NCBI GenBank assembly: GCA_022651385.1
Contig: JALCQR010000004.1
Coordinates: 124,001 to 188,000, forward strand
Direction of reading: 5' to 3'
Source of the DNA: Clostridia bacterium
Lineage (GTDB): Bacteria > Bacillota > Clostridia > Lachnospirales > Anaerotignaceae
Length of the DNA stretch: 64,000 bases
In this document: positions 35,439 to 51,733 of the stretch, one piece after another
Numbering within the stretch: position 1 is the stretch's first letter
Layout of the letters: each line of letters starts with the position of its first letter
Notes under the pieces: generated by a model
What the model was told of the DNA's origin: nothing
Database searches by the model: none
What the model saw: only the letters and a program-made list of their open reading frames with translations
Position numbers and translations under genes: made by a program

Positions 35439-36260
35439 ATGAAAAAAAAGAAACGAAAATCATCTACAGGTGAATGGCTTAATACGTATAGCGATATGGT
35501 TACATTACTTTTGTGCTTCTTTGTTTTAATGTACTCAATATCGTCTGTTGACAGTGCAAAATGGAAAATTATTGTGCAGAGCTTTAATCCATCACAGGGT
35601 GAATTAAGTCAAGTTGTTGATAATCTCAAACAAAATAACGGAGGTTATGCCGTGGACGGTGGTCTCGACGGCGGTGCTAAAGATATAGATAAAGCTGATA
35701 ATTTTGATGATAAAGATATTGAAAAAGCTCAAGATTTCGATGATATATATTATAAATTGTCAAAGTATGTCCAGTCTGAGGGGTTGGATTCAGAAGTATC
35801 AATATCAAAAGGTGACGGTTTTACTTTTATAACATTCAGAGATAAGGTGTTTTTTGACGGCAACAGCTATAAATTAAAAGACGAAGGCAAAAAAATTTTG
35901 GATCAGTTATGCTACGCAATATCGGATGTTAGCAAATCAATAGGTGAAATTCAAGTTTTAGGTCATACATCTCAGGCAAGTCCTGATGTGCCAAATGATG
36001 TTGAAAGTGATAGATTTTTGTCTTCAGACAGGGCTACGGAAGTTTTGGTATATATTCAGGAGAAGAATATAATAGATCCGTCAAAATTGATTTCAACTGG
36101 CTTTGGTCAGTTTAGACCGATAGCATCTTTTGATACTTGGGAAGACAGAGCTAAAAACAGACGTGTGGAAATTCTTATAACCAAAAGCAATCAGGTTGTA
36201 AAGAGTTTGGACAATTACTATAAAGAAGTTTATGGTATTGAAACAAACAATAATAATTAA
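35439..36260 (+). CDS. motB: Flagellar motor stator MotB
   Basis: MotB anchors the stator to peptidoglycan. The 273-residue protein has one N-terminal membrane helix with the ion-binding Asp19 (NTYSDMVTLLLCFFVLMYSI). A flexible acidic linker with a repeat of KDIDKADNFDDKDIEKAQDF type follows at about 85-105. The OmpA/MotB peptidoglycan-binding domain (GHTSQASP, FLSSDRATEVLVYI, STGFGQFRP, NRRVEILI) is at about 130-255. Whether protons or sodium are used cannot be read safely from the helix. It is separated from motA by 91 bases. Confidence 0.94.
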   Translation: MKKKKRKSSTGEWLNTYSDMVTLLLCFFVLMYSISSVDSAKWKIIVQSFNPSQGELSQVVDNLKQNNGGYAVDGGLDGGAKDIDKADNFDDKDIEKAQDFDDIYYKLSKYVQSEGLDSEVSISKGDGFTFITFRDKVFFDGNSYKLKDEGKKILDQLCYAISDVSKSIGEIQVLGHTSQASPDVPNDVESDRFLSSDRATEVLVYIQEKNIIDPSKLISTGFGQFRPIASFDTWEDRAKNRRVEILITKSNQVVKSLDNYYKEVYGIETNNNN

Positions 36261-36432: not shown

Positions 36433-37434
36433 ATGCCAGAGGTATTGAGTCAGAGCCAAATAGACGCATTGCTTGCTTCTGTAATGGGCGGCGATGATGT
36501 TGAAAAAGAATCACTCGATCTTGATGATAAAGAAAAGAATTATAGAAAATATGATTTTTATAGTCCGAAGAAATTTACCAAGGACAAGCTCAATATTTTA
36601 AGAAATGCTTATGAAAACTATTGCAGAATAGTATCATCAAGGATAAACAGCCTTCTTAGGGTAACAAGTGAGGTTTCTCTGGTTACGGTTGAAGAAGAAC
36701 GGTACTATGAATTTAGTAACGCTTTGTCTGACAATGATGCGTTAACTTTAATTAATGTAAGCATGCCGGGAGCGGAAGTGGGAGAAAATATTTTTATGCA
36801 TATAACCACACCGCTTGTATTAAGCATGATAGACCGTATGCTTGGCGGTTCTGGGGAAGACAACGTTAATGTACCGTCATCATATGTATACACCGACATA
36901 GACCTTAGGCTTTATGAAAACATAGCAAGATATATTGTTGGGGTTATGAAAGATGGGTGGTCTAATTACATTGATATGGATTTTAAGATATCAAAGCTTG
37001 AGACGCCTCATGGATTGCTGCAAGAAATAGGGATGGACGAAACAGTCGTTATTGTTGTAATAGAAGCGGTAATAAATAAAGTTGCCGGGAAAATTACTAT
37101 CTGTATTCCCAGTACCTTACTTACAAACATGTTTTCCATTGTGGAAAGCAAATCAGCTTCACATGGAAGACAAGCTGGCGGAGAAGATAAAACGTCTCAA
37201 GAGATTTTTAGTTCTATTGAAGACTCTTCTTTGGAAGTTACCGCTAAAGTCGGCGATGCCACGGTATTATTAAAGGATATTTATGATCTTAAAGAGGGCG
37301 ACATCATTAATATGAATAAGCCTAAAAATTCTGATGTAGATGTTTATGTAGAGGATAATCCATGGTTTAAGGGAAAACTTGGTGTGCAAAACAAAAACAT
37401 TGCCGTAAGGATAAGCGATGTAATTAAAAACTAG
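36433..37434 (+). CDS. fliM: Flagellar motor switch protein FliM
   Basis: FliM is the CheY-P-binding middle layer of the switch complex. The 333-residue protein starts with the CheY-docking peptide LSQSQIDALL at residues 5-14, then a CheC-like middle domain (LRVTSEVSLVTVEEERYYEF, GGSGED). The C-terminal SpoA/FliN-like domain ends the protein (VTAKVGDATVLLKDIYDLKE). GGGGGTGA lies about ten bases upstream of the ATG. It is followed by fliY, the usual Gram-positive order. Confidence 0.95.
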   Translation: MPEVLSQSQIDALLASVMGGDDVEKESLDLDDKEKNYRKYDFYSPKKFTKDKLNILRNAYENYCRIVSSRINSLLRVTSEVSLVTVEEERYYEFSNALSDNDALTLINVSMPGAEVGENIFMHITTPLVLSMIDRMLGGSGEDNVNVPSSYVYTDIDLRLYENIARYIVGVMKDGWSNYIDMDFKISKLETPHGLLQEIGMDETVVIVVIEAVINKVAGKITICIPSTLLTNMFSIVESKSASHGRQAGGEDKTSQEIFSSIEDSSLEVTAKVGDATVLLKDIYDLKEGDIINMNKPKNSDVDVYVEDNPWFKGKLGVQNKNIAVRISDVIKN

Positions 37435-37463: not shown

Positions 37464-38993
37464 ATGGAGTCAGAGATTTTTAGCTCTTTAGAGATAGATG
37501 CCATAGGTGAAATTCTTAACATAAGCCTTGGAGCATCGGCTACGGCAGTCTCTACACTACTTAACAGAAGAGTCGATATTACCATTCCTACGGTGGTAGT
37601 TTCAAACAAGCAAGATTTTGAATTTTCCTATATGGAACCGGCTGTTGGGGTTGAAATTGTTTATTTGTCTGGATTAAGCGGAAAAAACATAATGCTTTTA
37701 AAGCAGCATGATGTTAAAGTTATTGTTGAGATTCTTATGGGAACTGAAATTCCAGATGATGAGTTTGAGCTTAACGACCTTAATTTAAGTGCGGTTCGTG
37801 AAGTAATGAATCAGATGATGGGTGCTTCTTCAACGGCTTTGTCGGAATTTTTGGGAGAAGCTGTCAATATATCTACTCCTACGTCATATGAAATTAACAC
37901 AATGGAAGAGTTTAAAGAAAAATACCTTTCAGATGAGAAAATGGTTGTTGTAAGATTTTCATTAAAAATAGAAGACGCTATTGAAAGCGAATTCCTTAAT
38001 ATAATGACAATTGATTTGGCTAAAAAACTTTTAGCATGCATAGGTGTTGGAAGTAATGATACCAACAACACAAATAGTACGCCTAATGAGGTACATAAAG
38101 ACAACCAAACAGACAACAATAAGCCTTCACAACCTCAAAGCAATAATGAGGGGAAACTTTCACAAGAAGAAATAGAAAAATTAATGGCAGGAAATCAAGA
38201 AAATGAGCAGACAAGTGAGCCGGAAAAACCTCCTGAGACAGAGCCTTCAAACCCAGGCAAAATGCTTTCACAGGAGGAAATAGAAAAACTAATGTCAGGA
38301 GCTCAAGGCAATGAGCAGGCAAACGAGCCGGAAAAACCTCCTGAAACAAAGTCTTCAGACTCAGGCAAAATGCTTTCACAGGAGGAAATAGAAAAACTAA
38401 TGGCAGGAGCTCAAGAAAATGAGCAGACAAGCGAACCTGAAAAGCCTCCTGAAACAAAGCCTTCGGAGCCGTCTAACTCTAACAGGAAACTTTCACAAGA
38501 GGAAATAGAAAAACTTATAAACGCAGGTCCTGCTTCCGTAGGAAATGAAAATATGACTAATGTGCCGAAAGAAAATAACAAGGCACAGCCTAATGCGGTT
38601 GGAGATATTAACAGAAATGCTACACCGCAGGCCACAAGTGAACAGCCAAGGCAGCATGTAAATGAAAAGCGTGAGCCTAATATTATAAACGTTAAGCCAA
38701 ACAGAAACGATGAGATTCAAGAGGCAGTAGAACAGGGAGAGGAAAAACCAGAAAATCTGGACCTTATTATGGATGTGCCTTTGGAAATATCGGTTGAAAT
38801 TGGCCGTACTAAAAAGTGCGTAAAGGAAATACTTGAATACGGACAAGGTTCTCTTGTTGTTTTGGACAAGCTGGCAGGTGATCAGGTGGATGTTTATGTA
38901 AACGGTCAATGTATAGCCAAAGGCGATGTGGTGGTTGTTGATGATTGTTTTGGAGTACGTATAACAGAAGTTTTAAAGAAAGCTAAATTATAA
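37464..38993 (+). CDS. fliY: Flagellar motor switch phosphatase FliY with repeated CheY-docking-like peptide
   Basis: FliY combines a CheC-type CheY-P phosphatase (about 1-205) with a C-terminal FliN/SpoA switch domain (about 430-509). The phosphatase helices retain ExxxN/Q-like patterns in EIDAIGEILNISLGASATAV and LSAVREVMNQMMGASSTALS. The 225-residue linker is unusual: it holds four copies of LSQEEIEKL at residues 232, 268, 304 and 343, separated by Pro/Glu/Asn-rich spacers such as SEPEKPPET. This peptide resembles the single N-terminal CheY-P docking segment of FliM and FliY. The N-terminus itself lacks it. FliY is about 130 residues longer than B. subtilis FliY, the difference being this linker. 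Confidence 0.93.
   Translation: MESEIFSSLEIDAIGEILNISLGASATAVSTLLNRRVDITIPTVVVSNKQDFEFSYMEPAVGVEIVYLSGLSGKNIMLLKQHDVKVIVEILMGTEIPDDEFELNDLNLSAVREVMNQMMGASSTALSEFLGEAVNISTPTSYEINTMEEFKEKYLSDEKMVVVRFSLKIEDAIESEFLNIMTIDLAKKLLACIGVGSNDTNNTNSTPNEVHKDNQTDNNKPSQPQSNNEGKLSQEEIEKLMAGNQENEQTSEPEKPPETEPSNPGKMLSQEEIEKLMSGAQGNEQANEPEKPPETKSSDSGKMLSQEEIEKLMAGAQENEQTSEPEKPPETKPSEPSNSNRKLSQEEIEKLINAGPASVGNENMTNVPKENNKAQPNAVGDINRNATPQATSEQPRQHVNEKREPNIINVKPNRNDEIQEAVEQGEEKPENLDLIMDVPLEISVEIGRTKKCVKEILEYGQGSLVVLDKLAGDQVDVYVNGQCIAKGDVVVVDDCFGVRITEVLKKAKL
38157..38516 (+). repeat. In-frame repeat array in fliY linker, period 108-117 bp
   Basis: Units encoding LSQEEIEKL begin at 38157, 38265, 38373 and 38490, so the periods are 108, 108 and 117 bases, all multiples of three. 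The middle spacers are also similar in DNA (GAGCCGGAAAAACCTCCTGA type), which points to recent tandem duplication. Confidence 0.9.
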
Positions 38994-39024
38994 AACAATT
39001 AAAACGATGGAAAGGATGTTTCAA

Positions 39025-39384
39025 ATGTCTAAAATACTTTTGGTTGATGATGCTTCTTTCATGAGAATGATGATTAAGGATGCTCTTATGAAAAACGGCT
39101 ACAGCGATTTATATGAGGCGTCTGACGGAGTGGAGGCTGTTTCTAAATATTCAGAAATAAAGCCTGATTTAGTTATTATGGATATAACAATGCCTAATAT
39201 GGATGGACTTGATGCTTTGAAAGCAATTAAAAAAATTGATCCGAATGCTAACGTTGTTATGTGCTCGGCCATGGGACAGGAAGCAATGGTTATAGACGCA
39301 ATAAAATCAGGAGCAAGAGACTTTATAGTAAAACCGTTTAAACCTGAGAGAATATTAAAAACAGTTTCATCAGTTTTGGGGTAA
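39025..39384 (+). CDS. cheY: Chemotaxis response regulator CheY
   Basis: CheY, when phosphorylated, binds FliM/FliY and sets motor direction. The 119-residue receiver domain has the acidic pair in LLVDDASFMR, the phospho-acceptor Asp in LVIMDITMPNMDG, the Ser/Thr switch in VVMCSAMGQEA and the Lys in FIVKPFKPE. The ATG at 39025 follows GAAAGGATG by about eight bases and starts MSKILLVDD; an upstream in-frame ATG at 39007 adds six residues that do not fit the family. It lies between fliY and fliO, the standard Gram-positive position. Confidence 0.94.
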   Translation: MSKILLVDDASFMRMMIKDALMKNGYSDLYEASDGVEAVSKYSEIKPDLVIMDITMPNMDGLDALKAIKKIDPNANVVMCSAMGQEAMVIDAIKSGARDFIVKPFKPERILKTVSSVLG

Positions 39385-44809: not shown

Positions 44810-44833
44810 CACATGGGGGAGGGGTAGAAAAGT

Positions 44834-47142: not shown

Positions 47143-47775
47143 ATGAAAAAGCGAATTGATAATTATGAGGAAATAAACGGCTATGCCATGGACATGTTTA
47201 AGGAAATAGGCAGTATTGGAACCGGAAACGCCGCTACTGCGCTTTCAGGAACACTTTCATCTAAAATATCCATGTCACTTCCTGAAGTGGATATAATGGA
47301 TTATGATCAAGCTATTGATTTCCTCGGCGGACCTGAAAAAGTTATAGCTGCCGTTCTTGTTCATATGACCGGACAATTCAGCGGGATTATGCTCTATTTA
47401 CTTGATTTTGATTTTATGAATTTTGTGCTGGAAAAGCTTAATCTTAAAAAGATAAACAGTTATGATGACATAGATGAAATGAGCAAGTCGGCTATTTGCG
47501 AAGTAAGCAATATTATTATTTCCTCGTATGCTAATGCCATTTCGCAGTTAAGCGGAATATCAATAAACCTTTCAGTGCCGGCAATAGCTTTAAATATGCT
47601 TGGCGGAATAATGTCTGTGCCTATGATTGAGTATGGATATGTTACTGATAAAATTATGATGGTAGGCGGAAAGCTGATGTATTCAAATGAGGAGATGACG
47701 AGCAATTTGCTCATGCTGCCGGACATAAAGTCTTTAAACTTTTTATTTAAAAAGCTGGGGGTTTTCTATGAGTAA
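47143..47775 (+). CDS. cheC: CheY-P phosphatase CheC
   Basis: CheC removes phosphate from CheY-P and is activated by CheD. The 210-residue protein has both phosphatase helices: MFKEIGSIGTGNAATALSGT and ICEVSNIIISSYANAISQLS, each with the Glu and Asn of the ExxN active site. Length is normal. The 3' end overlaps cheD by 8 bases, so CheC and CheD are made together, matching their known complex. Confidence 0.92.
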   Translation: MKKRIDNYEEINGYAMDMFKEIGSIGTGNAATALSGTLSSKISMSLPEVDIMDYDQAIDFLGGPEKVIAAVLVHMTGQFSGIMLYLLDFDFMNFVLEKLNLKKINSYDDIDEMSKSAICEVSNIIISSYANAISQLSGISINLSVPAIALNMLGGIMSVPMIEYGYVTDKIMMVGGKLMYSNEEMTSNLLMLPDIKSLNFLFKKLGVFYE

Positions 47776-50725: not shown

Positions 50726-51733
50726 TTAATGATGAGGATTGTTTTTTACTACGCTACAGGCCCGTGATAACTGTGCTGTTACAGCACCTTTATACTGGCT
50801 GCTGAAAAAATTTAATAACGGTGAAACGTATGAACTGTCTACAACGATATATTTTGCCGGAAGTCCGTTTAAGGCCAGAGCCATTACGTCTACTTTGCAT
50901 CTTGGACACGTGCATACATCGAATAGTTTAAGAAACTCGTCAATTCTGCTTTTTACTATTTCCTCAAACACATTTACATATTGATATTCAATGCCGTTAT
51001 TGTTTGATTCTTGAGAGCTGATTTCAGCCGAGGTTTCAGGAGCTTTTTTTGTATCGTTTTCAGCTGAGGTCTCAGGAGCCTTTTTTGTGTCGTTTTCGGC
51101 TGTATTGGAACTTTCCGCTGCATTTTCAACTTTTTTTGTATCATCTTCAGCTTGTTTTTCATCCATATTTTCAGCTACATGTTTAAGAACGTTTTCAAAA
51201 GAACTTTTTGAAGCACTTTCAGAATCTGTTACAGAACTTTCTGTATTGCTTTCAGTTTGACTTTTTAAAATTTCAGCAGTGTCTTTAACTGTATCATTGC
51301 TTTCAGCTGAGTTATAATCAGTATTTTCGTTTTCATCAGTATTTTCGGAGCTTTCAGATATTGTTTCATTTTGAGCTACATCATTATCTGAAACAGCATC
51401 GGATAAAGACTCTGCATCCACAGTATCCAACTCATCGGCATTAAACTCTATGCCAGTATCATTTTGATTGGTCAGAATGTCCGATAGTGTGTCTTGTTTT
51501 GTACTATTTAGGCTTGCATTTATATCTCCATCATCAGCTATTTCGGAAAGCCTTTCCTTTACTTTCTCGGAAACTTTGTTATCTTTTGCTATGTCTACGT
51601 CTATAAAAGATAAATCATTTGTTATATCACTTTCGTTTGGCTCGATTTCTAAATCGTCATCTAATTTATGCTCCTCCTTGGATTTTGATATTAGCTTAAG
51701 AACATGGGCTGTTTTGTTTGTTTTTCGTGACAT
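50726..51733 (-). CDS. ComFB-domain protein with long acidic N-terminal region
   Basis: The 335-residue protein has two parts. Residues 1-240 are very acidic and rich in Ser, Thr and Asn, probably disordered, with a tandem repeat of NDTKKAPETSAE. The C-terminal 95 residues are a ComFB-like domain: NVFEEIVKSRIDEFLKLFDV, then CTCPRCKVDVMALALNGLPAKYIV, with three Cys of a likely metal site. ComFB was named in the competence operon. From memory, some members bind cyclic dinucleotides, which would fit a motility locus. It lies 80 bases downstream of a parA-like gene on the same strand, with AGAGGT before its ATG. Confidence 0.75.
   Translation of the reverse strand: MSRKTNKTAHVLKLISKSKEEHKLDDDLEIEPNESDITNDLSFIDVDIAKDNKVSEKVKERLSEIADDGDINASLNSTKQDTLSDILTNQNDTGIEFNADELDTVDAESLSDAVSDNDVAQNETISESSENTDENENTDYNSAESNDTVKDTAEILKSQTESNTESSVTDSESASKSSFENVLKHVAENMDEKQAEDDTKKVENAAESSNTAENDTKKAPETSAENDTKKAPETSAEISSQESNNNGIEYQYVNVFEEIVKSRIDEFLKLFDVCTCPRCKVDVMALALNGLPAKYIVVDSSYVSPLLNFFSSQYKGAVTAQLSRACSVVKNNPHH
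51024..51095 (-). repeat. 36-bp tandem repeat in the acidic region of the ComFB-domain gene
   Basis: Two adjacent units at 51024-51059 and 51060-51095 differ at about four positions and keep the frame, encoding the repeated NDTKKAPETSAE peptide. Confidence 0.8.

Follow-up and report, generated by a model that had tools for sequence, protein, structure and literature searches.

The DNA analysed here, called the window in what follows, is a stretch of 64,000 nucleotides from a Clostridia bacterium. It contains a flagellar operon in which fliY adjoins fliM, at the place where fliN otherwise sits (Table 1). The FliY protein begins straight at its CheC domain, and a linker rich in Pro, Glu and Asn (residues ~200-430) is located between this domain and the SpoA domain. 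Four times in the linker the peptide LSQEEIEKL is found, with a spacing of 108, 108 and 117 bases. These copies had been pointed out in an earlier sequence-only reading, whose residue numbers and periods we reproduced exactly; its further statements, that FliM has a peptide of its own and that the FliY N-terminus has none, could both be read in the sequence as well.

Table 1. Features of fliY and of the neighbouring genes, with positions in the window
Feature	Position	Strand	Evidence
fliM, switch protein	36433..37434	+	Pfam FliM and FliMN_C
FliM docking peptide LSQSQIDALL, residues 5-14	36445..36474	+	sequence; matching peptide in nearly all relatives
fliY, 509 aa: CheC-type phosphatase, then a disordered linker bearing the four peptides, then SpoA (FliN-like)	37464..38993	+	Pfam, AlphaFold
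FliY segment matching CheC	37464..38048	+	Pfam CheC; match to T. maritima FliY core 4hyn; AlphaFold pLDDT about 94
First ExxN active-site motif, E16, N19	37509..37520	+	invariant, 40 relatives
Second ExxN active-site motif, E113, N116	37800..37811	+	invariant, 40 relatives
Tandem array, 108-bp unit, 2.9 copies	38157..38464	+	TRF score 483
Linker peptide copy 1, LSQEEIEKLM, residues 232-241	38157..38186	+	sequence; predicted helix 234-241
Linker peptide copy 2, LSQEEIEKLM, residues 268-277	38265..38294	+	sequence; predicted helix 270-278
Linker peptide copy 3, LSQEEIEKLM, residues 304-313	38373..38402	+	sequence; predicted helix 306-313
Linker peptide copy 4, LSQEEIEKLI, residues 343-352	38490..38519	+	sequence; non-helical in model, pLDDT <50
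SpoA / FliMN_C domain of FliY, residues 434-504	38763..38975	+	Pfam PF01052
cheY, presumed ligand, directly 3' of fliY	39007..39384	+	Pfam Response_reg
24-bp junction flhA / motility sigma factor; flhF and flhG absent	44810..44833	+	site of both genes in relatives such as G219

The marks of a FliY protein are two [DS]xxxExxN sites within a CheC-like domain and, C-terminal to it, a SpoA domain. This layout was found here, with Pfam matching CheC twice and FliMN_C once. The closest solved domains are those of Thermotoga maritima, 4hyn for the core and 1o6a/1yab for the C-domain. Both ExxN sites are kept in every FliY compared, and no association was seen between loss of the peptide and loss of phosphatase residues. 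Apart from FliM and FliY the genome encodes no SpoA protein, and a separate FliN is missing, so that FliY takes the place of FliN. No EIDALL-type peptide of the B. subtilis kind is present at the N-terminus; membership in FliY nevertheless stands, because this peptide is not universal among FliY proteins. Compared with B. subtilis FliY, the window protein shares the domain order, both phosphatase sites, the kind of docking peptide and the position of the gene beside fliM and cheY, but B. subtilis has a single N-terminal peptide together with FlhF/FlhG, while the window has four linker copies and neither FlhF nor FlhG. Just 5' of the SpoA domain lies a short conserved element, IINVKP (38682-38699), and at this place relatives have IINV[KQ]P or VxPVQF elements.

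The likeness of the linker copies to the docking peptides of FliM and FliY, also noted in the sequence-only reading, agrees with the published LSQxEIDALL peptide (PMC6700473, PMC7595845). Length, helix-forming pattern and the conserved L-S-Q, I and L positions are those of the FliM N-terminal peptide; the latter, however, is single and terminal, whereas the linker copies are internal, repeated and of the form EIEKL[LM]. The linker shows the amphipathic-helix pattern LSQxEI[DEN]xL[LM] of EIDALL-type docking peptides, with helices predicted at copies 1-3. A degenerate DNA pattern for the peptide has four sites only in the 2.6-Mb genome, all of them in the FliY linker, and the reversed pattern, used as a control, gave 0 matches in the whole genome; shuffling the linker 200,000 times likewise produced 0 motif matches against the 4 observed. 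According to TRF, the FliY array far outscores any other tandem array in the window. Within the peptide the four copies differ only synonymously, except at the last residue (M/I). In a search of solved structures the peptide by itself had no significant homologue, and the myosin light chain matches obtained with the 23-aa repeat were discarded as chance (best E 0.7).

In the AlphaFold model, computed with 40 relatives, the CheC domain is confident and the linker disordered; short helices coincide exactly with copies 1-3, and the SpoA domain is poorly modelled (pLDDT mostly under 75). The model supports the Pro/Glu-rich tether of the sequence-only reading as a disordered linker, and suggests a tether beside the phosphatase that carries short linear motifs. 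It might be argued that the peptides are instead structural staples, binding within the C-ring to FliM, FliG or FliY's own domains, as they sit between two C-ring domains and as their consensus departs from EIDALL. We consider this improbable: the predicted helices are isolated and are not confidently docked on either FliY domain (in a single-chain model, which is blind to FliM and FliG contacts), and the spacing among relatives, 18-43 residues, is looser than a fixed staple would allow.

The distribution of the linker copies was followed in three sets of FliY proteins, namely the family of the window organism, named genome records and a sample across the phylum for which only the CheC domain served as query; the named-record set is biased, since its search pattern is in part the peptide itself. 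All 26 family genomes having FliY carry linker copies (1-4), with one copy in nine, two in five (one truncated), three in nine and four in three. Most genomes of the wider clade have them too, in numbers of 1-5, the first copy lying near residue 225. Altogether about 90 related FliY proteins have 1-5 linker copies, and the genera include Anaerotignum, Lacrimispora, Hungatella, Oscillibacter, Intestinimonas, Flavonifractor, Butyricicoccus and Anaerovorax, among others. The sequence-only reading had implied that four copies are a peculiarity of this protein; from these counts it is evident that they are not, linker copies, 1-5 in number, being general in this FliY lineage. Concerning the remaining Bacillota of the sample, a single LSQEEIDALL-type peptide lies N-terminal to the CheC domain (N-type). 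The two kinds of peptide differ systematically: where the N-terminal EIDALL has Asp-Ala, the linker consensus LSQEEIEKL[LM] has Glu-Lys. The linker itself has a median of ~74 residues in N-type FliY versus 180-220 where it carries 2-4 copies.

Exceptions to this division are few. Two N-type proteins (L187, L202) have the N-terminal peptide plus one linker copy, the other N-type linkers being without copies, and variant N-terminal peptides of the form LSxxEIxxL occur in L145, L146 and L150. In two further N-type proteins (L149, L257) the N-terminal EIDALL peptide is present twice, hence peptide duplication also occurred outside the linker-type lineage. A recognisable peptide is missing from six relatives. 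Five of these (L123-L127) belong with the linker-type FliY proteins on the tree; another case is G649. Since cheY is nearby in at least L123, L125 and L127, the peptide is dispensable in places. The FliY of L127 has a very long Pro/Gln/Met repeat linker made of QPMQQP units and no docking peptide.

A FliY tree was built by a quick method from the CheC and SpoA domains, leaving out the linker (171 rows, SH-aLRT support only). A single branch, with full support, separates N-terminal-type FliY from linker-type FliY together with those without a peptide, and at least 30 changes of copy number are needed within the linker type. A single deep branch accompanied by so many changes indicates an old relocation and a restless copy number. 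Both types are found within the order of the window organism, where family f2 is mostly N-type and genus g343 has linker copies; g379, by identity, clusters with the linker-type clade. This co-occurrence suggests that whole flagellar clusters may have moved horizontally.

The same division separates genomes with and without FlhF and FlhG. The FlhF profile TIGR03499 was searched in 146 genomes: none of the 38 of the linker-type clade, the window genome included, had a match above cut-off, whereas FlhF was found in 108 of 108 outside it, 105 over the cut-off, two with a specific match that fell short of it (G546, G532), and one (G219) as a divergent ORF immediately 5' of flhG, read by eye. Among these 108, the peptide was read in all of 52, while 42 of the other 56 were called N-type by FliY identity alone. 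Clear FlhG was likewise missing from all 28 linker-type-clade genomes searched for it, again including that of the window (best score 142 bits, i.e. MinD level), and reached 233-451 bits in 45 of 46 genomes outside the clade, the exception being G319, where FlhG is broken at a contig edge. Flagellar operons without FlhFG thus appear to be a lineage trait. In these sequences the loss of the N-terminal peptide in this clade coincides perfectly with the lack of FlhFG, but this is a correlation rather than proof of cause, because essentially a single deep event in the FliY tree underlies it.

This absence bears on the partner of the linker peptides. Work on Bacillus and Geobacillus has shown that FlhG binding requires the N-terminal 36 residues of FliY and that these residues suffice for it (PMC12327844); the N-terminal peptide falls within this stretch. 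One could therefore suppose that the linker peptides bind an assembly factor in the same manner, and serve assembly of the C-ring rather than signalling. We regard this as very improbable, because just MinD-level matches are left in the clade genomes searched; the window protein lacks the N-terminal peptide, and its genome lacks FlhF/FlhG. With the genes missing from the clade genomes searched, FlhG was rejected as the present partner and cannot explain the persistence of the linker copies.

To compare adjacent copies codon by codon we used 81 genes with two or more of them. The ratio pN/pS was 0.096 in the ten peptide codons (bootstrap 95% 0.077-0.118) and 0.536 in the flanking codons (0.488-0.579); it should be noted, however, that this contrast is partly built in, since copies were selected by a pattern, which lowers pN inside the motif. 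Copies diverge at synonymous sites (pS 0.46) and in the spacers, not in the peptide. Q3 and I6 are almost invariant and position 8 (K/R/A/Q) is the loosest; positions 4 and 7, open or loose in the pattern, are also conserved between copies, and a Gly at +11, outside the pattern, is kept too (pN 0.075).

These values are relevant to the possibility that one copy is functional and the extra ones are neutral tandem duplicates in a disordered linker tolerant of length. The lability of the copy number on the tree and the nine of 26 family members for which a single copy suffices speak for it, as does the DNA unit of the array, 87% alike between copies (TRF), which points to recent duplication. Neutral spares would nevertheless be expected to diverge, and a peptide pN/pS of about 0.10 despite the synonymous divergence is not what they would show, though part of this conservation is due to ascertainment by the pattern; moreover two or more copies are kept in 17 of the 26 genomes of the family and in most of those in the wider clade. 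On balance we find this explanation rather unlikely, although for the copies beyond the first a neutral excess remains a real alternative.

Concerning the presumed ligand, for 89 of the 93 linker-type rows the locus as fetched includes cheY, and the closest solved relative of the window CheY is that of T. maritima (including 4iga). Positions of the central groove are alike in CheY of the linker-type and N-type clades, while several at the rim differ. Between N-type and linker-type CheY (39025-39381 in the window) the rim of the docking face changes, in E. coli numbering, at 92 (Q to E), 112 (Q to K), 119 (A to T) and 122 (K to T/S/G), and two relatives with EEIQAML peptides again show Q92/A119. 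Position 5 of the FliM peptide changes from E to Q in the linker-type clade, and is confounded with clade like the CheY rim changes. Co-evolution of CheY with the linker peptide was not counted as evidence, because clade differences of equal strength are found elsewhere in CheY and the two clades are separate.

CheY-P is known to bind the LSQxEIDALL peptide of FliM and of B. subtilis FliY (PMC7595845; PMC6700473), and the N-terminal FliY region that binds FlhG also binds CheY-P (PMC7595845). As the N-terminal peptide has gone along with its FlhG partner, the relocated copies most likely serve CheY-P. Considering all this, we think it probable that the linker peptides are relocated and amplified CheY-P-docking peptides, forming a multivalent capture tether near the FliY phosphatase. 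The capture of CheY-P at this site, as imagined in the sequence-only reading, gains plausibility from the two intact ExxN sites. Missing from that reading is that CheY is not the sole known partner of the N-terminal FliY stretch, FlhG being another.

According to this proposal, the ordinary single N-terminal peptide of FliY would have been relocated to the linker and multiplied to 1-5 tandem copies. Docked to the alpha4-beta5-alpha5 face of CheY-P, each linker copy (LSQEEIEKLMAG) would adopt the form of a short helix. As a multivalent tether at the C-ring, the array would capture CheY-P and pass it to the two ExxN sites, either in its own FliY or in a neighbouring one; for switching, CheY-P would still be read by the single N-terminal peptide of FliM. 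What the analysis shows is the sequence with its distribution and conservation, the coincidence with the lack of FlhF/FlhG, and a disordered linker with predicted helices at the motifs; binding of CheY by the linker peptides, the hand-over and any gain from more copies are inferred. In other species FliN is present at about three per FliM (PMC6946799); if FliY replaces it at a similar ratio, four copies could bring the docking sites in FliY to about a dozen for each one in FliM. More tentatively, and with rather less confidence than in the docking itself, it is conceivable that loss of FlhF/FlhG freed the peptide from the N-terminus, and that it was rebuilt as an antenna, tuned by copy number, which captures and hydrolyses CheY-P. 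Were this so, FliY would hold several times more docking sites than FliM, and copy number would set the gain.

A comparable arrangement is that of CheZ, in which a helix that docks CheY is held on a flexible tether close to the site of CheY-P dephosphorylation. The resemblance is functional only, with no sequence relation, and in the window the peptide is tandem and the phosphatase of CheC type and built into the C-ring. T. maritima FliY is reported not to prefer activated CheY (PMC7355467) and, unlike in the window protein, a repeated linker peptide is not reported for it. We found no earlier description of linker-borne or repeated FliY docking peptides in the openly readable literature. Descriptions of FliY place the CheY-P-binding peptide at the N-terminus, and as FlhG uses the same stretch, the two roles have hitherto been hard to separate. 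Bacteria of the linker type separate them, having no FlhF/FlhG, no N-terminal peptide and linker copies instead; they offer natural material for asking how CheY-P capture, hydrolysis and switching depend on how many docking sites the motor carries. The group also stands out as a flagellar lineage without FlhFG among organisms of Lachnospirales and Oscillospirales type.

Elsewhere in the window, a stand-alone CheC (47143-47775) has ExxS rather than ExxN in its first phosphatase helix (FKEIGSIG), the second (CEVSN) being intact. Two other coding tandem repeats were also observed: one of 36 bp (51022-51102), in an acidic ORF (50726-51733, minus strand) beside a ParA-like gene, and one of 33 bp (35678-35745), in an ORF (35439-36260) that follows a MotA-like gene.
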